NCBI GenBank assembly: GCA_019356535.1 | Contig: CP037918.1 | Location: 1,706,315 to 1,770,314, forward strand | Reading direction: 5' to 3' | DNA: 64,000 bases | From: Chromatiaceae bacterium | GTDB lineage: Bacteria > Pseudomonadota > Gammaproteobacteria > Chromatiales > Chromatiaceae | In this document: in pieces, positions 56,269 to 63,977 of the stretch | Numbering within the stretch: the stretch's first letter is position 1 | Layout: each line of letters opens with the position of its first letter | Program-made: the position numbers and the translations under genes | The notes under the pieces: generated by a model | Seen by the model: the letters and a program-made list of their open reading frames with translations, nothing else | Database searches by the model: none | What the model was told of the DNA's origin: nothing

Positions 56269-58245
56269 ATGCCACGCTTGGAGATACCGGCAGGCGACTC
56301 CAGCGACCGGAAGATGCGAAACACGATGGACAACGAAACACCGACCAGGACTGACAAACGCACTGGCACTGCCAGCACTCTGGGACTGGTCGTGCCGGAA
56401 CAGTCGCCGCCCCCCCAGGACAGCATGCTACTCGAGCCCAAGGACACGGCCGAATGGATTGCTTCTCTGCCTTTAGCCAACATCGGCGAGACCTCGCGCC
56501 AGGTCTATACCGCCCTCCTGGATTTCAATCGCTACGAAATCCCGGACATGGTGCGTGCCAAGGTGGTGGAGCTGTTCCGCCCGACGGTGGACTACGTCTG
56601 CCACAACCTGCGAAGACACTACATGGACGTGGGCTTTCCATTGTCCAAGAAGGCCTGGAAGACGGTGGTGTTGGCCCGCGAGCTGCACAACGAACTGGCC
56701 ACATCGTACAAGATCATCGTGGAGCGAATGCTCTCGGGAACAACCGAACGCTTCGACCGCAAACTGCTGGTGATCGCCCTACACCGCACTCTGCACTATC
56801 TGGGGCGGGCCTATCTCCAGGCCAGCCTGGCCTATACCCGGACGCCCGCACAGCTGTGGAAGCAGGTCAACGCAGTGTACGCCTTCTCCCGCCAGAACCA
56901 TATCCATCGCATCCCGGTGAAAATGAAGATGGAGAATTTCAAGGAGGTCTCCACCATAGAAGAGCGCTACAAGGCCTTGCTGCTGTTTGCCGCCACGGCG
57001 CCTTCGCGGCTGCGCCAGTCTCACCTGGAACTCACCTTCCACAAGACGCTCGAATGGTCTGGCCAGACGCATTTCCTGGGATTGGACGATAACATCCCGA
57101 CCAACGGCGCCTTGAACGTGAGCCTGACATCCGACGAGGGACCGATACACAACGCTCTACGTATGCCCATCGCCAGCCGCCATGTCGCCATACTTGACAT
57201 ACGCCCCTTGATCCAGCGACTGCAGGCGGAATACGAAGAAGCCCCGCTCGACGGATCGGGTGACATCCGTCCTGGAAAACCGCTCATCTCGCGAGCCCTG
57301 CTGCGACAACTGATCCATAGCTGGCACGCCCCGGCAGAGCGCCAGTTCGTGCGCACCCGGCTGCATTTTTCGCTCCACGTGCTGACCGGTTTCCGTTCGA
57401 TTCATGCCGCCCTCTCATCCAGCTGCCATCCCTGCCCCCCAAGTGAGGAACTGCCTTCGACCCTCGACAGCAGTCCGAACATCAACATCCCGGCCCTGAC
57501 CACCGCACACCAGATCAATCCATTGGGCGGCATTGACGAGAGTCAGCTCTCTCTGGCTCCAACCAGTCTCGACCTGCAATCGGGAAATTCTCTGATCAAC
57601 GAAAACAGCTCCTTGCTGCTCGACGGCAGCCCCCTGCCCGACAATCCCGGCACACCCATCGACTGGCAAGAAAGCCGCATGATCGATTCGGTGGACCTCA
57701 GGGGGGTGGAAGTAACCACGCTCAACGAAAGTGCTGGCGGCTACTGCATACAGTGGCTCGCCAAAGACCATCCACGCAAGGTCAAGGTCGGCCAGTTGCT
57801 GGGCGTAGGCAACAAGGACAATCCCTTGGACTACAGCCTGGCGGTCATTCGCTGGATGCGCAGCATCAGCCAGGAGCGACTGGAACTCGGCATGGAAGTG
57901 ATTTCCACCCACGTCCGGGCCACCCATGCGCGCCCGTTAAACCCTGGCAAAAGCAGCAGAAAGGTTCCGAAAAAGATCCCTTGCTTCATTCTGGATTTCC
58001 ATCACCCGCCGCGTGGGAACGAGAAGCCCAGCCTGGTATTCAACAGCACCTCCTACCCGGTAGGAAGCCAGTTCATCCTAGAGGACCTACCCAGCGACAG
58101 GCAGCCCATCCGCCTGACCCGCCTGATCGATTTCAGCAGCGCCTTCGCACGTCTCGGCTTCGAGTTGGCCGCCAATGGGGAAGATTCGGAGGGGGGATCC
58201 TCGGAACCGTATAATGAATTCGACAGTCTATGGAATTCGTTATAG
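56269..58245 (+). CDS. Uncharacterised protein with PilZ-like C-terminal region, next to FimX
   Basis: A 658-residue soluble protein. ATGs at 56269, 56314 and 56326 are all possible starts; an AGGGAAGGG stretch abuts the first. Residues of about 60-400 are alpha-helical and rich in Arg and aromatic residues, with no motif I know. A Ser/Asn-rich linker follows (about 400-470). The segment around 480-580 has NESAGGYCIQWL and then VGQLLGVGNKDN...YSLAVIRWMR, the N-x-S-x-x-G plus beta-strand pattern of PilZ c-di-GMP-binding domains. The N-terminal RxxxR half of that motif is not clearly seen. With FimX just downstream (54-bp gap), a role in c-di-GMP control of pili or surface behaviour is a reasonable inference. 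Confidence 0.7.
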   Translation: MPRLEIPAGDSSDRKMRNTMDNETPTRTDKRTGTASTLGLVVPEQSPPPQDSMLLEPKDTAEWIASLPLANIGETSRQVYTALLDFNRYEIPDMVRAKVVELFRPTVDYVCHNLRRHYMDVGFPLSKKAWKTVVLARELHNELATSYKIIVERMLSGTTERFDRKLLVIALHRTLHYLGRAYLQASLAYTRTPAQLWKQVNAVYAFSRQNHIHRIPVKMKMENFKEVSTIEERYKALLLFAATAPSRLRQSHLELTFHKTLEWSGQTHFLGLDDNIPTNGALNVSLTSDEGPIHNALRMPIASRHVAILDIRPLIQRLQAEYEEAPLDGSGDIRPGKPLISRALLRQLIHSWHAPAERQFVRTRLHFSLHVLTGFRSIHAALSSSCHPCPPSEELPSTLDSSPNINIPALTTAHQINPLGGIDESQLSLAPTSLDLQSGNSLINENSSLLLDGSPLPDNPGTPIDWQESRMIDSVDLRGVEVTTLNESAGGYCIQWLAKDHPRKVKVGQLLGVGNKDNPLDYSLAVIRWMRSISQERLELGMEVISTHVRATHARPLNPGKSSRKVPKKIPCFILDFHHPPRGNEKPSLVFNSTSYPVGSQFILEDLPSDRQPIRLTRLIDFSSAFARLGFELAANGEDSEGGSSEPYNEFDSLWNSL

Positions 58246-58299: not shown

Positions 58300-60402
58300 A
58301 TGGTAGCCACCCCCGATTCGGTTTTCCAAATCCTGGACGATGGCGATTCGCCATTGGAGCTACTGATGGTCGGCAGCTCGGCCGAGGAAGCCAGCCGCTG
58401 TGCCACTGCCCTGCGCAACAGCGGCCAACCGGTGCGTATGGAAAGCACCGAGACACGCGAGGGCCTGCTGCGCTTGCTCGAGACGGAGCCCGCAGATCTG
58501 GTGACCATCAACGTCGACTCGGCAACCTTGCCGCCAGACATCGCCATCGAGATGATCCGCAAGGAAAACCCTGCGGCGTCCATCATCCTGCTGAGCGAAA
58601 ACCCGCCTGCCTGGGCAGAATATGCCCGCGAGAGCGGCGTGCGGGACCTGCTACACCCCACATCTATCGGCCGTCTTGTCTTCGCCATCCAGCGCGAATA
58701 CCGCACCCTGCTGCTGCGACAGGAGCTGGCACGCACGCGGCACCAGCTCGCCAATGCCGAACTGCGTTTCCAGAAACTGCTCAATAGCTCACAGGACGCC
58801 ATTGCCTACATCCACCAGGGTCTGCACATCCAGAGCAACGCGGTCTACCGGGAACTCTTTGGCCTGTCGGCAGAAGACATGGAAAGCATCACCATGATGG
58901 ATCTGATAGCTCCCGAAGACCGGAACACCTTCAAACGGCTACTCCGACAGGCCGGAGAGAAGGAGGTGTGCCAGAAGCTGCGCTGCCGCCACAGGGACGG
59001 CGGCGAGTTCGAAGCCGATATCGAGCTTCACCCCCTGGAGGTCAACGATGAACCCTGTGTCCAGGTGCTGATACGCACCGGCACGACCAACGGCGAACTG
59101 CAAGCGCGCATCCGCCAGCTCATCGACCGTGACCCGCATACCCAGTTGTTCAACCGTCATGCCTTCGTACGCGCCCTGGAGCGCATCCAGACAAAGGGCG
59201 GTTTCCGTGACAACGCCATGCTGATGAAGATCAGCATCGACAACTTTGCCGAACTGTGCGATCACGAAGGCATCGACAAGGGAGACCGGCTGCTGAAGAA
59301 GACCGCCGAGATATTGCAGTCCCATTTCCACGACGACCTGCTCTCGCGTTTCGGCGATCACGAATTTCTGGTTCTCACCCACTCCAGGAAGTCTCCCGAC
59401 GAGGTGGCCAAGCATTGCCTCGACACGCTTCACGAAGGTTCGATCCAGAGAACCTGCGAACTGTCGGAACCGCCTGAATTCAGCCTTGGGGTCGTCACCT
59501 CCAACCAGGCGAGGAATCTCAGCGCCCTTGAGCTCATCCGCCGTTGCCGACGCGCCGTGCGCCATACACGTACCGAACGAGAGCCAGCCCGCCAATCGGC
59601 CAGCACGTTCAACGATAACGGCCCGGAAGAACCGGCCGCCCCCGAGGTCGACGCCAAGATTGTCGACCTGATCGACAGCGCCCTGGAACACGATGGGTTC
59701 CGGCTGCTCTACCAACCCATCGTGAGCCTGGAAGGTGATACACGAGAGAACTACTCGGTCTTCGTGCGACTGCCGGACAACAATGGGGTCGAACGCGAAC
59801 CCGCCTGGTTTTATCAACACGCCAGTCGCAGCCAGCGCCTGAGCGAGATCGACCGCTGGGTCATCCGCCGTGCCATCAGCGAGCTCTCCCGCCACCGCAG
59901 CATCGGGCGCAAGATCAATTTCCACATCACCCTGTCTCACGACGGTGCGCTGGATGATTCCATGCTGCTCTGGGTGTGTGACTGCCTGCGCGAATTCAAG
60001 GCCAAGGGGGCCTGGCTGTATTTCCAGTTCGATCTGGAGTTGTTGCAGAAACGCCCGCCCAAGCTGATGCGCCTCATCCAGGGCCTGAAGAAAATCAACT
60101 GCCGAATCAGCTGCAATGGCATCAAGGACGATTTCACCCACCACGATCTGCTGCAGCACTATGCCGTGGAATTCGTCCGCCTCTCACCGGAATTGACCAG
60201 GGACCTGGCCTCTGATGCCAAGCGCCAGGAGCGCCTCGCCGAGCTCAACGCCGGACTTCAACAGGCAGGCATGAAAACCGCTGCCACCGGCATCGAGGAT
60301 GCCAATACCCTGGCCGCGCTCTGGAACATGAACGTCAACTACATCCAGGGATATTTTCTGCAGGAACCCGCCCCGCAGATCGACGTCATCGGCAACGAAT
60401 GA
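58300..60402 (+). CDS. fimX: FimX-like REC-PAS-GGDEF-EAL c-di-GMP receptor
   Basis: A 700-residue cytoplasmic signalling protein. A receiver-like domain (about 20-140) lacks a clear phospho-Asp, then a PAS domain (about 160-275, FQKLLNSSQDAIAYIHQGLH). The GGDEF domain is degenerate: FGDHEF at the active site. The EAL domain is also degenerate: LYQPIVSLEGDTRENYSVFVRL, with no EAL triplet. P. aeruginosa FimX has the same order and the same losses; it binds c-di-GMP with its EAL domain and directs type IV pilus assembly through PilB. No pil genes lie in the window. The ATG at 58300 starts MVATPDSVFQILDDG. Confidence 0.85.
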   Translation: MVATPDSVFQILDDGDSPLELLMVGSSAEEASRCATALRNSGQPVRMESTETREGLLRLLETEPADLVTINVDSATLPPDIAIEMIRKENPAASIILLSENPPAWAEYARESGVRDLLHPTSIGRLVFAIQREYRTLLLRQELARTRHQLANAELRFQKLLNSSQDAIAYIHQGLHIQSNAVYRELFGLSAEDMESITMMDLIAPEDRNTFKRLLRQAGEKEVCQKLRCRHRDGGEFEADIELHPLEVNDEPCVQVLIRTGTTNGELQARIRQLIDRDPHTQLFNRHAFVRALERIQTKGGFRDNAMLMKISIDNFAELCDHEGIDKGDRLLKKTAEILQSHFHDDLLSRFGDHEFLVLTHSRKSPDEVAKHCLDTLHEGSIQRTCELSEPPEFSLGVVTSNQARNLSALELIRRCRRAVRHTRTEREPARQSASTFNDNGPEEPAAPEVDAKIVDLIDSALEHDGFRLLYQPIVSLEGDTRENYSVFVRLPDNNGVEREPAWFYQHASRSQRLSEIDRWVIRRAISELSRHRSIGRKINFHITLSHDGALDDSMLLWVCDCLREFKAKGAWLYFQFDLELLQKRPPKLMRLIQGLKKINCRISCNGIKDDFTHHDLLQHYAVEFVRLSPELTRDLASDAKRQERLAELNAGLQQAGMKTAATGIEDANTLAALWNMNVNYIQGYFLQEPAPQIDVIGNE

Positions 60403-60432: not shown

Positions 60433-60930
60433 TCACCAGGGCATGAAGGCATTCATGATCCGCATCGGCCGCCCCAAGTCCCGGTTCATGCGATACATGT
60501 GAAGATTCATCCCCTGTGCGGCAGCATTCAGTGCACCGGTGGTGCGGGTCATGTCACGCATCGACTGGTCCATGGAATGAATGTTGGCCAGCATGGGCTC
60601 GAGCGTGCCCACCTTGTGATCGATGGACGCCAGACTCACCGTCATGGCACGCACATTGGTTGTGAGCTGCCCCATGTTCTTGGCGACCACCTGCATGTTG
60701 CCCGCAAGGGTGGTCATATTGCGATCGACACTGATGGCCAGGTAATGCACATCACGTTGCAGGTTGTAGATCAGGTAGAAACCGTAGAGCGCCAAAACGA
60801 TGAAGGCAAACAGGGAAGGGTAGATGATCAACTCCCAGCGCCTTGCGCTGGACTCGAACACCTCGGAGAGGCGCGCATACTCATCTTCGTGTGAGACCGC
60901 CTTCGGGGCTTCGCTCTCCTGTTCACTCAT
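60433..60930 (-). CDS. Membrane-anchored Met-rich coiled-coil protein, paralogue 3
   Basis: A 165-residue protein with an acidic N-terminus, one membrane helix at about 35-56 (LIIYPSLFAFIVLALYGFYL) and a helical, Met-rich outer region (RNMTTLAGNMQVVAKNMGQL, IHSMDQSMRDM). It ends YRMNRDLGRPMRIMNAFMPW, clearly like paralogues 1 and 2 at 20655-21807. The function is unknown. It is downstream of the TPR and ParA genes on the same strand, 202 bases after the TPR gene, and converges on fimX. Confidence 0.7.
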   Translation of the reverse strand: MSEQESEAPKAVSHEDEYARLSEVFESSARRWELIIYPSLFAFIVLALYGFYLIYNLQRDVHYLAISVDRNMTTLAGNMQVVAKNMGQLTTNVRAMTVSLASIDHKVGTLEPMLANIHSMDQSMRDMTRTTGALNAAAQGMNLHMYRMNRDLGRPMRIMNAFMPW

Positions 60931-61132
60931 GGGTCGACATCCGGATGAAAATCAGCATGGAAAATAACACAGGAAGCCCTAAATCACACTAACATCAGTA
61001 AAGACAAGGCTCTCCTGAGCTCCCCCGGAAGCGGAGATTGACCAGAGATCACGGAAGGAGCTTCCGAGCAGAAGGCGTGAAGCACGCCCCCCACCGGGAT
61101 ACGCTGTTTCTGGCCGGTGCGGGAGCATGATC

Positions 61133-61849
61133 TCACTGAACGCTCAGTTCGCGTGCACGCGGGTCCCCCGCCTTCTCCAGCCACTCGACGATTTGCACCA
61201 GCTGCTTGCGATCACCCACGGCACGCAGGCGCACGCCAGCCTCGTAGTAGGCGTCCAGCGCATCACGGGTGCGCCCCATGGACTGGTACAGGTTGCCCAG
61301 CTCTCCAAAACCATTGGCATCATCGGGCCGCATTTGCAGGTACCGCAGGTACAGCACCTCAGCCTTCTGCGGCTGGCCGTTCCAGAAGGCGGCCCGGGCA
61401 CGCTTGAGCAAGGCATCTGCCGGCAGGCGGATCTCCTCCTCGCCAAGCGGACGCAGTCGCGGCAGCATCCGGGATGTCTCCGGGGAGTGAGCCCCTGCGG
61501 GACGCTGTGCAACGGCGCGCTCCTCCGCCATCAGTAGGCGGAACTGTCGGCGGGACATCGCGCCTGCACCAGTACCCCCCGTCGTTTCCGTCCCTTCCCC
61601 TGCCGGGGCTACGACACTATCCGACGGGTCCAACTCGTCTGCCAGGGACGGCTTGTCCACGCCCTTCACCGGCGTTGCCGTCGTTGTCTCGGTGCCTCCA
61701 GCGGCAGCAACGCCCTCTGTCACCGTCTGTTCGGACAGCCCGAACAAGGGCCCACGAAACAACACCGCCACGAACAGAAAGGCGAGAAACCCGATCGCGA
61801 CCAGGTGACAGGCCAGCCAGTTGAGCACTTGCCCAGACCAGCGCCACAT
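61133..61849 (-). CDS. Membrane-anchored TPR protein
   Basis: A 238-residue protein with an N-terminal membrane helix (about 15-33, LVAIGFLAFLFVAVLF), a low-complexity Thr/Gly-rich linker (about 40-95) and two or three TPR units near the C-terminus (AFWNGQPQKAEVLYLRYLQM, NGFGELGNLYQSMGRTRDAL). The C-terminal region likely faces the periplasm. TPRs bind partner proteins. It starts three bases after the ParA-like gene stops, so the two are tightly linked in translation. I do not know a characterised homologue. Confidence 0.72.
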   Translation of the reverse strand: MWRWSGQVLNWLACHLVAIGFLAFLFVAVLFRGPLFGLSEQTVTEGVAAAGGTETTTATPVKGVDKPSLADELDPSDSVVAPAGEGTETTGGTGAGAMSRRQFRLLMAEERAVAQRPAGAHSPETSRMLPRLRPLGEEEIRLPADALLKRARAAFWNGQPQKAEVLYLRYLQMRPDDANGFGELGNLYQSMGRTRDALDAYYEAGVRLRAVGDRKQLVQIVEWLEKAGDPRARELSVQ

Positions 61850-61852
61850 GGC

Positions 61853-62533
61853 TCAGCCCAGCAGATCCGGGTACAGGGCCGCGGCCAGGGCGTTCCACTC
61901 CGCCGCCCCCTTGCCGCGCGGTTGCTGCTCGAACACCGCCAGCCCCTCGCTGAACGAACGCCGATAGACGGTGCGCTGTGCCAGCCGCGGTTTCAGGTAA
62001 CGAATCCCCGGCAAGCTAATCAGCGCCGCGGCCGCCTCGTCAGACTCGCGAATGGCATGGTGGGTATCAGCGCGATTGATGAACCCCAGCACCTCGATGT
62101 CACGATCGCCTGCATTGGCAGCCACAAAACGCAGAAAACGCTGAGTAGACCAGATATCCGCCTGGCTGGGCGGCACCGGGACCAGGATACGGTCGGCCAC
62201 TGCGATGGCCTGCTTGAGATTGTCCATGGACGCGGTGCCGACATCGATCAACACCTGTTCATACTCGGCCAACGCCTCGGCAGACTTCAGGACATCAGCC
62301 TTCAGTCGGGGCACCGTCGGGTGATAGCCCTCCTCTGCCCGTACCATCAACACATCCGAAAGCGTCGCCTGAGGATCGGCATCGACCACCGCCACCTCGC
62401 TATCCGCCAGCTTCAACCAGATCGCCAGGTTGAACGTTACCGTGCTCTTGCCCGAACCGCCCTTCAGGCTGCCAATCATGGTGATCACCGACGGCTCCTC
62501 GATCGTTTCAGCTACCGCACCAGAAACAGTCAC
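61853..62533 (-). CDS. ParA/MinD-family ATPase
   Basis: A 226-residue ATPase with the deviant Walker A KGGSGKST (24-31), the Walker A' acidic region VVDADPQATLSD, and DVGTASMDNLKQAIAVADR. Such ATPases place plasmids, chromosomes, carboxysomes, pili or chemoreceptors in the cell. No ParB is present, and there are no plasmid functions nearby. The start is GTG 62533, which overlaps the 3' end of the upstream Pro-rich gene by 26 bases. The TPR protein three bases downstream is the best candidate partner. A C-terminal membrane-targeting helix like that of MinD is not evident. Confidence 0.82.
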   Translation of the reverse strand: MTVSGAVAETIEEPSVITMIGSLKGGSGKSTVTFNLAIWLKLADSEVAVVDADPQATLSDVLMVRAEEGYHPTVPRLKADVLKSAEALAEYEQVLIDVGTASMDNLKQAIAVADRILVPVPPSQADIWSTQRFLRFVAANAGDRDIEVLGFINRADTHHAIRESDEAAAALISLPGIRYLKPRLAQRTVYRRSFSEGLAVFEQQPRGKGAAEWNALAAALYPDLLG

Positions 62534-63353
62534 TGCCCCATGGCATGCCGGCCAGCGGCCTCCATCCCGGCAGAAAACCGCCCCAGGAGGACCGCCGGCT
62601 GCCGACCCCGTACCTGCGATAGGTGAGGCCCGGCCTGCGGCGGGTGAAGTACGGATCGGACCAGGCGTTGCCGGCTGGCATCACGCCCCAGGGCGTCAGT
62701 GTCAGGGCTGGCCCGGGCGGGGGATAAGGTCCCGACCACAAAGGCATGGGATACGGCTGTCCCAGCGCACCGCGGACCGGAACGCCCGGATAGGGCGGTG
62801 GATAGTAGCCCAGCGGCGGGTACGGATAAGGCCCGCGCGGCACCGGGCCAGTCACGGGGAAAACCGGGCGCGGCGGCGGCAAGTGACGATAACGCGGTGG
62901 CGGCGGAGGCGCGGGCCGATAACCTCGCGCCCAGGCGGCGGCCGGCGGCATCCAGGCATGGGCCGGACGCGGCAGACGATATTGCGGCACCGGCGGGACC
63001 GGCGGGCGGCGCGGCGCAACCAGCGGGAGACTCACTGGCCGCCAGGCATACTGACGTGCAAAGGCCGGTGCCGCCGGCGGTGGTGGTGCGGGCGGCATAC
63101 CCATGCTGACGAAAGGCTGCCCCGGATAAGGTGTCATCGGCCGGGAGGGTTGCCAGGCAGCGGCCGGAACCGGCCGGAACCGTGGCTGCACAGGCGGCGG
63201 TGGCGGCAGCGGGGCGACAGGCGCTTGCGGCAGTGCCCGTGGTTGTATGGCCTCGGGCCGCCACTGCATCGCCTCGGCGGCCAACGTCACTTGCACGGGG
63301 ACCAGGCTCACCAGGCAGGACAGAAACAGCTTCCTGATGCGTTCGACTTTCAT
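62508..63353 (-). CDS. Exported Pro/aromatic-rich protein
   Basis: A 281-residue protein with a signal peptide (MKVERIRKLFLSCLVSLVPV, ending near VTLAAEA). The mature part is extremely rich in Pro, Tyr, Trp and Arg (runs such as PVAPLPPPPPVQP, PYPYPPLGYYPPPYPG) and has no globular-domain motif. It ends DCFWCGS with a CxxC pair. Composition recalls low-complexity envelope proteins such as sulfur globule or coat proteins, though those are Gly-rich; this is analogy, not homology. AGGTGAG lies before the ATG at 63353. Its 3' end overlaps the parA start. Confidence 0.65.
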   Translation of the reverse strand: MKVERIRKLFLSCLVSLVPVQVTLAAEAMQWRPEAIQPRALPQAPVAPLPPPPPVQPRFRPVPAAAWQPSRPMTPYPGQPFVSMGMPPAPPPPAAPAFARQYAWRPVSLPLVAPRRPPVPPVPQYRLPRPAHAWMPPAAAWARGYRPAPPPPPRYRHLPPPRPVFPVTGPVPRGPYPYPPLGYYPPPYPGVPVRGALGQPYPMPLWSGPYPPPGPALTLTPWGVMPAGNAWSDPYFTRRRPGLTYRRYGVGSRRSSWGGFLPGWRPLAGMPWGSDCFWCGS

Positions 63354-63380
63354 TCTCACCTCTCGTTGCCACCCCCTAGC

Positions 63381-63977
63381 CTACCGGTAGGGCCAGTAGG
63401 GCGGGACATAGGGCCACGGCGTATAGGGTGCCAGTGGTGGGGGTACATTGGGCGTTACGGTACCATAAGATACCCCCCAAAAGGGCAAGGGAATTGGCGG
63501 GAAGGGCATCATGACCGGCCATCCCCAGCTTACTGGCGTATAGGGCGAGGCCGCATACAGGGGATAAGGGCCAAACCAGGCAGACTGCGTTCCTGACACC
63601 TCCCCCGAGTCACCGATGTGTGGGCGTGCAAACGGTCGGAACTGCGCATGCGCGTCGGCTTCCGCAGACCCTGTGCCCGAGCGGGGCTCGGCAGCGCCCG
63701 GCGCAGCCGGGATGTCCGGGCGAAAACGGGCCACGGGCTGATACCAGGCGCCAAGGGTCGAATCGGTCACGCGCCGGGGCCACACCGATTGACGCTGAGC
63801 CAGTACTCCGTTCACTGGCCGGAACGTGGTCCGCTGCACTTCGGGTGCCAACCAGCGCCCGGGGATGGCAGCCATAGCAGCGCTGGCGCTAAACGCCACC
63901 CACCATGTCAACACCAAAAGTGCCGATCGCCAGCAGAGCCACACCCCGAAATTCGCCGCTGTCACCCTGCGAGCCAT
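63381..63977 (-). CDS. Exported Pro/aromatic-rich protein, second
   Basis: A 198-residue protein from ATG 63977 (a GTG nine bases earlier is possible) with a long N-terminal hydrophobic segment (about residues 9-35, ending AMAAIPG). The C-terminal 80 residues are rich in Pro, Tyr, Trp and Phe (GPYPLYAASPYTPVSWGWPV, PPFPPIP-like runs, YVPPYWPYR) like its downstream neighbour, from which it is separated by 27 bases. No family is recognised. It is the first gene of the minus-strand group 63977-61133 that can be seen; more genes may lie beyond the window edge. Confidence 0.6.
   Translation of the reverse strand: MARRVTAANFGVWLCWRSALLVLTWWVAFSASAAMAAIPGRWLAPEVQRTTFRPVNGVLAQRQSVWPRRVTDSTLGAWYQPVARFRPDIPAAPGAAEPRSGTGSAEADAHAQFRPFARPHIGDSGEVSGTQSAWFGPYPLYAASPYTPVSWGWPVMMPFPPIPLPFWGVSYGTVTPNVPPPLAPYTPWPYVPPYWPYR

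Follow-up and report, generated by a model that had tools for sequence, protein, structure and literature searches.

In purple sulfur bacteria, giant sulfur bacteria and vent symbionts, sulfur globules serve as a major storage body. In Allochromatium vinosum they are periplasmic, and their most abundant protein, SgpD, has regularly spaced prolines and is encoded by a gene adjoining a hydrophobic/amphiphilic exporter gene (PMC10386293). ATPases of the ParA/MinD family are known for plasmids, chromosomes, carboxysomes, flagella and chemotaxis arrays, and partner proteins activate them via a positively charged disordered terminus (PMC10241942). Here we describe a gene cluster with a ParA-type ATPase, located at the end of a 64,000-nucleotide stretch (the window; G000:C1:1706315-1770314) of the complete 2.75 Mb chromosome of a Chromatiaceae bacterium. 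We read it, with a probability of about 0.6, as a chromosomal sulfur-globule module in which a ParA-type system acts on periplasmic sulfur globules and the tail of an RND permease serves as its membrane partner.

The ATPase is closest in sequence and fold to that of the TP228 ParF/ParG (ParA–ParB) system; it too is a small ParA without an N-terminal DNA-binding domain and, by our hypothesis, would also act through the flexible terminus of a partner. The cluster differs in being chromosomal, in having no ParG/ParB or parS nearby and in that its putative partner is the tail of a membrane transporter. As in carboxysome positioning by McdAB, the gene for a ParA-type ATPase lies beside genes of a storage or metabolic body, and McdA is a structural neighbor; in contrast, no McdB-like partner was seen here and sulfur globules are periplasmic, so a link between ParA and globules must cross the inner membrane. 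The permease (PF00873) and the MFP adaptor with HlyD domains resemble HAE-1/AcrB-type RND–MFP efflux systems, but the cluster RND carries a tail of 100–380 amino acids (aa) with the motif RRGIRLK, which is absent from the short-tailed homologs examined, and no outer-membrane factor gene stands alongside. Genes for sulfur globule proteins (SGP, PF17228), described as SgpA–D in A. vinosum, co-occur with the module and often lie inside it, though not in the window genome, whereas the Pro-rich exported proteins of the module, which carry an FRP motif, match no SGP model. The genes of the cluster are as follows.

63381..63977, minus strand: ProA, exported Pro/aromatic-rich protein (open reading frame, N-terminal hydrophobic stretch; FRP motifs TFRPV, RFRPD and QFRPF; no Pfam/NCBIfam family matched)
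62508..63359, minus strand: ProB, exported Pro-rich protein, 27% Pro (open reading frame, N-terminal hydrophobic stretch; motifs RFRPV and AWRPV; no Pfam/NCBIfam family matched)
61853..62488, minus strand: ParA-type ATPase, 211 aa from the likely GTG (PF01656; deviant Walker A KGGSGKST; DxDPQ; longer open reading frame from 62533)
61133..61849, minus strand: TPR protein with an N-terminal transmembrane (TM) anchor and a predicted periplasmic TPR domain (PF00515, 3.7e-8)
60433..60930, minus strand: Met-rich coiled-coil protein (short cytosolic N-terminus, one TM segment, Met-rich periplasmic helix ending F-x-P-W; weak DUF948)
L002:6380-10468, outside the window: RND permease, 1362 aa (PF00873, 2e-136)
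L002:10529-11779, outside the window: MFP adaptor, upstream of RND (HlyD domain)
L002:11961-13442, plus strand, outside the window: dynamin-like GTPase, divergent from MFP (PF00350, 1e-13)

The initial annotation, made from the window, had described a five-gene envelope cluster. All five minus-strand open reading frames are there, with the exported, ATPase, membrane-anchored TPR and Met-rich coiled-coil characters ascribed to them, and the cluster is conserved. It is larger than first described: RND, MFP and the dynamin-like GTPase belong to the same cluster, which the window end cuts, the RND stop codon lying 65 nt beyond it.

A genome scan found 314 ParA relatives, and neighborhoods were compared in 81 loci. 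The closest relatives (the best 80 of 314, which were kept) are mostly from Sedimenticola, Thiolapillus, Thiodiazotropha, Thiosymbion, vent tubeworm symbionts and purple sulfur bacteria; the cluster is also present in A. humboldtianum and A. palmeri, close relatives of A. vinosum. More than 80 genomes share the order MFP–RND–Pro-rich–ParA–TPR–coiled coil. Among the 81 loci, ParA is found in 81, the coiled-coil gene in 73 and RND in 68, with many of the others cut by contig ends; RND and MFP precede the cluster wherever contigs reach far enough, and ProB homologs occupy the equivalent position in L033, L034 and L036-L038. Because ParA and the coiled-coil gene are so regularly present and their order is conserved, chance grouping is excluded. 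No ParB is encoded in the window neighborhood, as the initial annotation had said, or in the next 12.7 kb outside the window. Nor was a ParB-type partner seen beside parA in the flanks of the loci examined, where RND/MFP, Pro-rich, TPR and coiled-coil genes stand instead. Carboxysome genes, which the annotation had also reported as absent, and McdB are likewise missing from the neighbors seen in those loci. We rejected an ordinary ParABS system on these grounds, the lack of ParB and the conserved non-partition neighbors. The broader notion of an ordinary chromosome or plasmid ParA beside unrelated envelope genes, together by chance or common descent, has in its favor that the best NCBIfam match of the ATPase is the ParA family partition ATPase NF041546 (134 bits, below the 180-bit cut-off); given the order kept in more than 80 loci across many families, and an RND motif tied to ParA even where the genes are apart (see below), we regard it as very improbable.

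The presence of ParA follows that of SGP genes, identified by PF17228. Among 93 relatives, ParA occurs in 52 of 58 genomes with SGP and in 0 of 35 without. Across 369 class-wide Gammaproteobacteria genomes the counts are 50/56 and 15/313 (Fisher p 2e-41, a value that is overstated because related genomes are not independent). Safer evidence is the family count (ParA is present in 25 of the 27 SGP-containing GTDB families), together with the loss cases described below. The initial annotation had proposed a search for the gene set in other sulfur oxidizers; there the order is conserved and the module tracks SGP more tightly than dsrA. Thus 35 relatives outside the family include 4 genomes with ParA, SGP in the same 4, and dsrA in 9, and a dsr-linked function was set aside as weaker than the SGP link. 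The two sets of genes are also often neighbors. In 13 genomes an SGP gene lies at most 3 kb upstream of parA on the same strand: directly upstream with a gap below about 220 nt in G089, G136, G155, G209, G243, G279, G289, G319 and G347, and within 3 kb in G091, G194, G346 and G401 (spacings from gene positions, verified for several genomes). The directly upstream arrangement recurs in many families. An SGP gene lies inside the cluster in G091, in L177, L234-L236, L240, L241, L242 and in others; the copy adjoining parA in G089 scores 0.5 bits under the PF17228 cut-off. The SGP association is well supported by these sequence comparisons, and the module very probably serves sulfur globules. SgpD was not equated with the coiled-coil or Pro-rich proteins, since sgpD is described as forming its own transcription unit and as occurring only in Chromatiaceae.

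RND permeases normally end soon after their last TM helix. Every orthologous RND of the kind found in this cluster has a cytosolic tail of 100–380 aa (160–380 aa in 68/68 with the C-terminus in view), mostly rich in Lys and Ala; that of the window genome has a weak histone H1-like match (HC2, 5e-6, below cut-off). At or near the tail end, those 68 orthologs have RRGI[R/Q]LK or a close variant such as RRGIRLR, with one clear deviation, WRGIRLN (L033). Over all loci, RRGI[R/Q/K][L/I][K/R] is present in 101 of 103 tail-bearing RND orthologs (G015 counted once despite two overlapping loci), 86 of them with exactly RRGIRLK; the exceptions are G015 and L033 (= G007), the latter a small 1.9 Mb genome in which ProA is a fragment and the TPR gene was not found. 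The motif is absent from 21/21 short-tailed RND homologs, including a 58%-identical paralog of the window genome, where RRGIRLK is encoded once. This paralog (G000:C1:813974-817213, L136) has a counterpart in G057:C101 (L121) about 2 kb from an SGP gene, and it may be the kind of exporter found beside sgpD in A. vinosum.

In genomes without ParA, the motif has usually decayed or the tail is missing. In G015, MFP, RND (82% core identity) and the coiled-coil gene remain and ParA and the Pro-rich genes are gone; the motif has decayed to RKSVRIK, and the RND tail ends STRKSVRIKQNPSDES. G137, a complete genome, and G261 retain MFP, RND, FRP proteins, SGP, DUF4412, TPR, coiled-coil and dynamin-like genes, and both ParA and the tail are absent (27–32 aa left). 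G398 has no ParA, and its one complete RND is without the motif. Conversely, RND and ParA are encoded at separate places in G072, G089, G026 and G339 and the motif is retained, so linkage does not account for its persistence. Two further genomes with the motif and no ParA in view have loci cut by contig ends: in G025 the contig stops 26 nt past the gene that usually comes before parA, and G145 is likewise cut. Coupling between ParA and the RND tail is well supported by these comparisons. The tail is likely the ParA partner, because it alone among the candidates in the cluster is charged and disordered like known partners, and it alone is present or absent along with ParA. To our knowledge, neither a transporter tail as ParA partner nor a periplasmic ParA cargo has been reported.

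The RND core is of the normal HAE-1/AcrB type: its best PF00873 stretch is residues 28-875, RND models cover 29-1090, and the nearest solved structures are RND pumps. ParA might spread the RND–MFP pump evenly over the inner membrane. The pump would then supply growing globules by moving sulfur compounds, lipids or coat proteins, and the placement of globules would follow only indirectly. The MFP, an SCP2-like protein and a LolA-like DUF4412 neighbor, all suggestive of traffic in hydrophobic molecules, fit such a role; the many Pro-rich FRP proteins, the SGP genes and dynamin would be left unexplained, and we judge this alternative rather unlikely.

The ATPase is a CbiA/ParA-type P-loop protein (PF01656, 2e-13) with intact Walker motifs. 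The deviant Walker A with signature lysine and the DxDPQ motif are invariant in 20 orthologs (K24, G25, G26, G28, K29, S30, T31, D51, D53, Q55), and the invariant R183, R187, R191, R192 and K208 are candidate DNA contacts. An AlphaFold2 model (pTM 0.80) gave TP228 ParA/ParF, MipZ, MinD, McdA and Soj as top Foldseek matches, and the nearest solved relatives are TP228 ParF/ParA (4dzz, 1.7e-15; 5u1g, ParA with partner ParB, 2.3e-11). The second NCBIfam match is BcsQ-like (TIGR03371, 5e-12), and the FRP and TPR proteins resemble envelope assembly. Both would suit an ATPase for assembly or gating that acts at the membrane to regulate the RND complex, as BcsQ does for cellulose synthase, with the H1-like tail as a scaffold. 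We consider this improbable: by both sequence and fold the protein is most closely related to plasmid ParF/ParA and McdA, and about 5 residues follow its last core helix (208-220); the chain stops with the core fold and has no obvious MinD-type C-terminal membrane helix.

On the periplasmic side, the FRP motif occurs in 92 of 93 Pro-rich exported proteins encoded between RND and ParA (214 occurrences, where shuffles gave an expectation of 12.5; FKP-type controls show no enrichment) and in 15/19 TPR protein homologs. With this strong enrichment in the exported proteins and its recurrence in TPR proteins, FRP looks like a short periplasmic binding motif. The coiled-coil alignment has an invariant juxtamembrane/TM segment, RLS..FE.SA+RWE.I.YPSLFAF..LA.YGF, in addition to the C-terminal F-x-P-W; its AlphaFold2 model is one long helix of low confidence (pLDDT 66).

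We propose that ATP-bound ParA dimers would sit on the nucleoid and that the disordered, mostly basic cytosolic tail of the RND permease would dock on ParA via RRGIRLK. By analogy with the charged disordered termini of other ParA/MinD partners, the tail may stimulate ATP hydrolysis. In the periplasm, RND–MFP would provide the link to sulfur globules or their assembly sites together with the FRP-motif, TPR and coiled-coil proteins, so that ParA would space and share out RND/globule sites over the inner membrane. Around the globules, membrane may be remodeled by the dynamin-like protein. Whereas the conserved order, the SGP co-occurrence and the co-evolution of ParA with the RND tail are read directly from genomes, we infer, at even odds, that ParA positions or partitions globules and not the pump alone. 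Somewhat more tentatively, this would be the first system for the spatial organization of sulfur globules and the first ParA system to reach a periplasmic cargo through the membrane, with the RRGIRLK tail as partner and FRP proteins leading to the globule coat, such that globules are spaced and inherited. The initial annotation had suggested that the genes position or assemble an unusual envelope structure; the conserved order, the lack of ParB and the SGP co-occurrence fit this, and the core of the system, an RND with a ParA-linked tail, was not visible inside the window. Neither of the two outcomes that it had named as contrary, unrelated neighbors in other genomes or an ordinary ParA with a ParB just outside the window, was observed.

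Several observations weigh against the sulfur-globule module as we describe it. The known partners described in PMC10241942 bind ParA via an N-terminal stretch, and that of RND would be C-terminal. In G054 (76% complete) the motif and a contiguous cluster are present, no ParA was found, and the net charge of the tail is -2; G007 has ParA and the deviating WRGIRLN; tail charge varies widely, from -14 to +48. The cluster of the window genome is without an SGP gene, its five SGP genes being elsewhere. In 2023, globules of many species were described as apparently lying at random, and no positioning system was named (PMC10386293). Transport could be the main function. Our literature searches found no described system that places or inherits sulfur globules, and none involving ParA, dynamin or RND; among known machineries, that of the cluster could be the first to determine where sulfur globules lie within a cell. 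If so, globules would be spaced and passed to daughter cells by ParA via a transporter tail. The question can be tested directly through the seven residues of the motif, for instance in A. vinosum, which is genetically tractable.

The 26-nt overlap of parA with proB, from which the initial annotation had in part argued tight coupling, is probably a start-codon artefact: it is doubtful because it depends on the most upstream GTG, and orthologs start at the position of GTG 62488, which has a good Shine-Dalgarno sequence (GAGGAG) 6 nt upstream and leaves a 19-nt gap. The first 11 residues of the long form were modeled with low confidence. The coiled-coil gene begins 202 nt behind the TPR gene and may therefore be transcribed separately from it.

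Wider contexts read dynamin-like / [SCP2-like] MFP RND Pro-rich [SGP] [DUF4412] ParA, TPR or DUF302, coiled coil; Pfam supports the DUF302, DUF4412 and dynamin assignments. The module is also present in many other GTDB families, where the dynamin-like gene is often behind the coiled-coil gene. This GTPase (PF00350) is a near-constant module neighbor in sulfur-globule bacteria (56/93 relatives), found in the same genomes as the module plus a few more. A 131-aa SCP2-like protein is often encoded before MFP (L176, L177, L180, L235, L239, L244), an assignment that is weak (16.7 bits for the G015 copy, cut-off 21.3). Many genomes, the window genome not among them, encode a membrane-anchored DUF302 protein between ParA and the coiled-coil gene (L066, L077, L180, L236, L244). 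Often present between the coiled-coil and EAL genes is a protein of about 300 aa (L046, L049, L091, L188, L190), which from its sequence, judged by eye, we take to resemble a 5'-nucleotidase. More distant ParA homologs (34-39%) in L247 (G141) and L246 (G173) have other surroundings, without RND/MFP, and a sister ParA subfamily with another partner may exist.

Convergent to the module in many loci are the EAL gene, a gene for a 658-aa protein and EpmB. The first two in the window are:

58300..60402, plus strand: PAS-GGDEF-EAL protein (PF00563/PF00990; in 57/81 loci)
56269..58245, plus strand: 658-aa protein, no Pfam/NCBIfam family (in 29/81 loci)

The PAS-GGDEF-EAL protein is probably not a member of the module, though often retained beside it. 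The conservation of this convergent pair hints at control by c-di-GMP.

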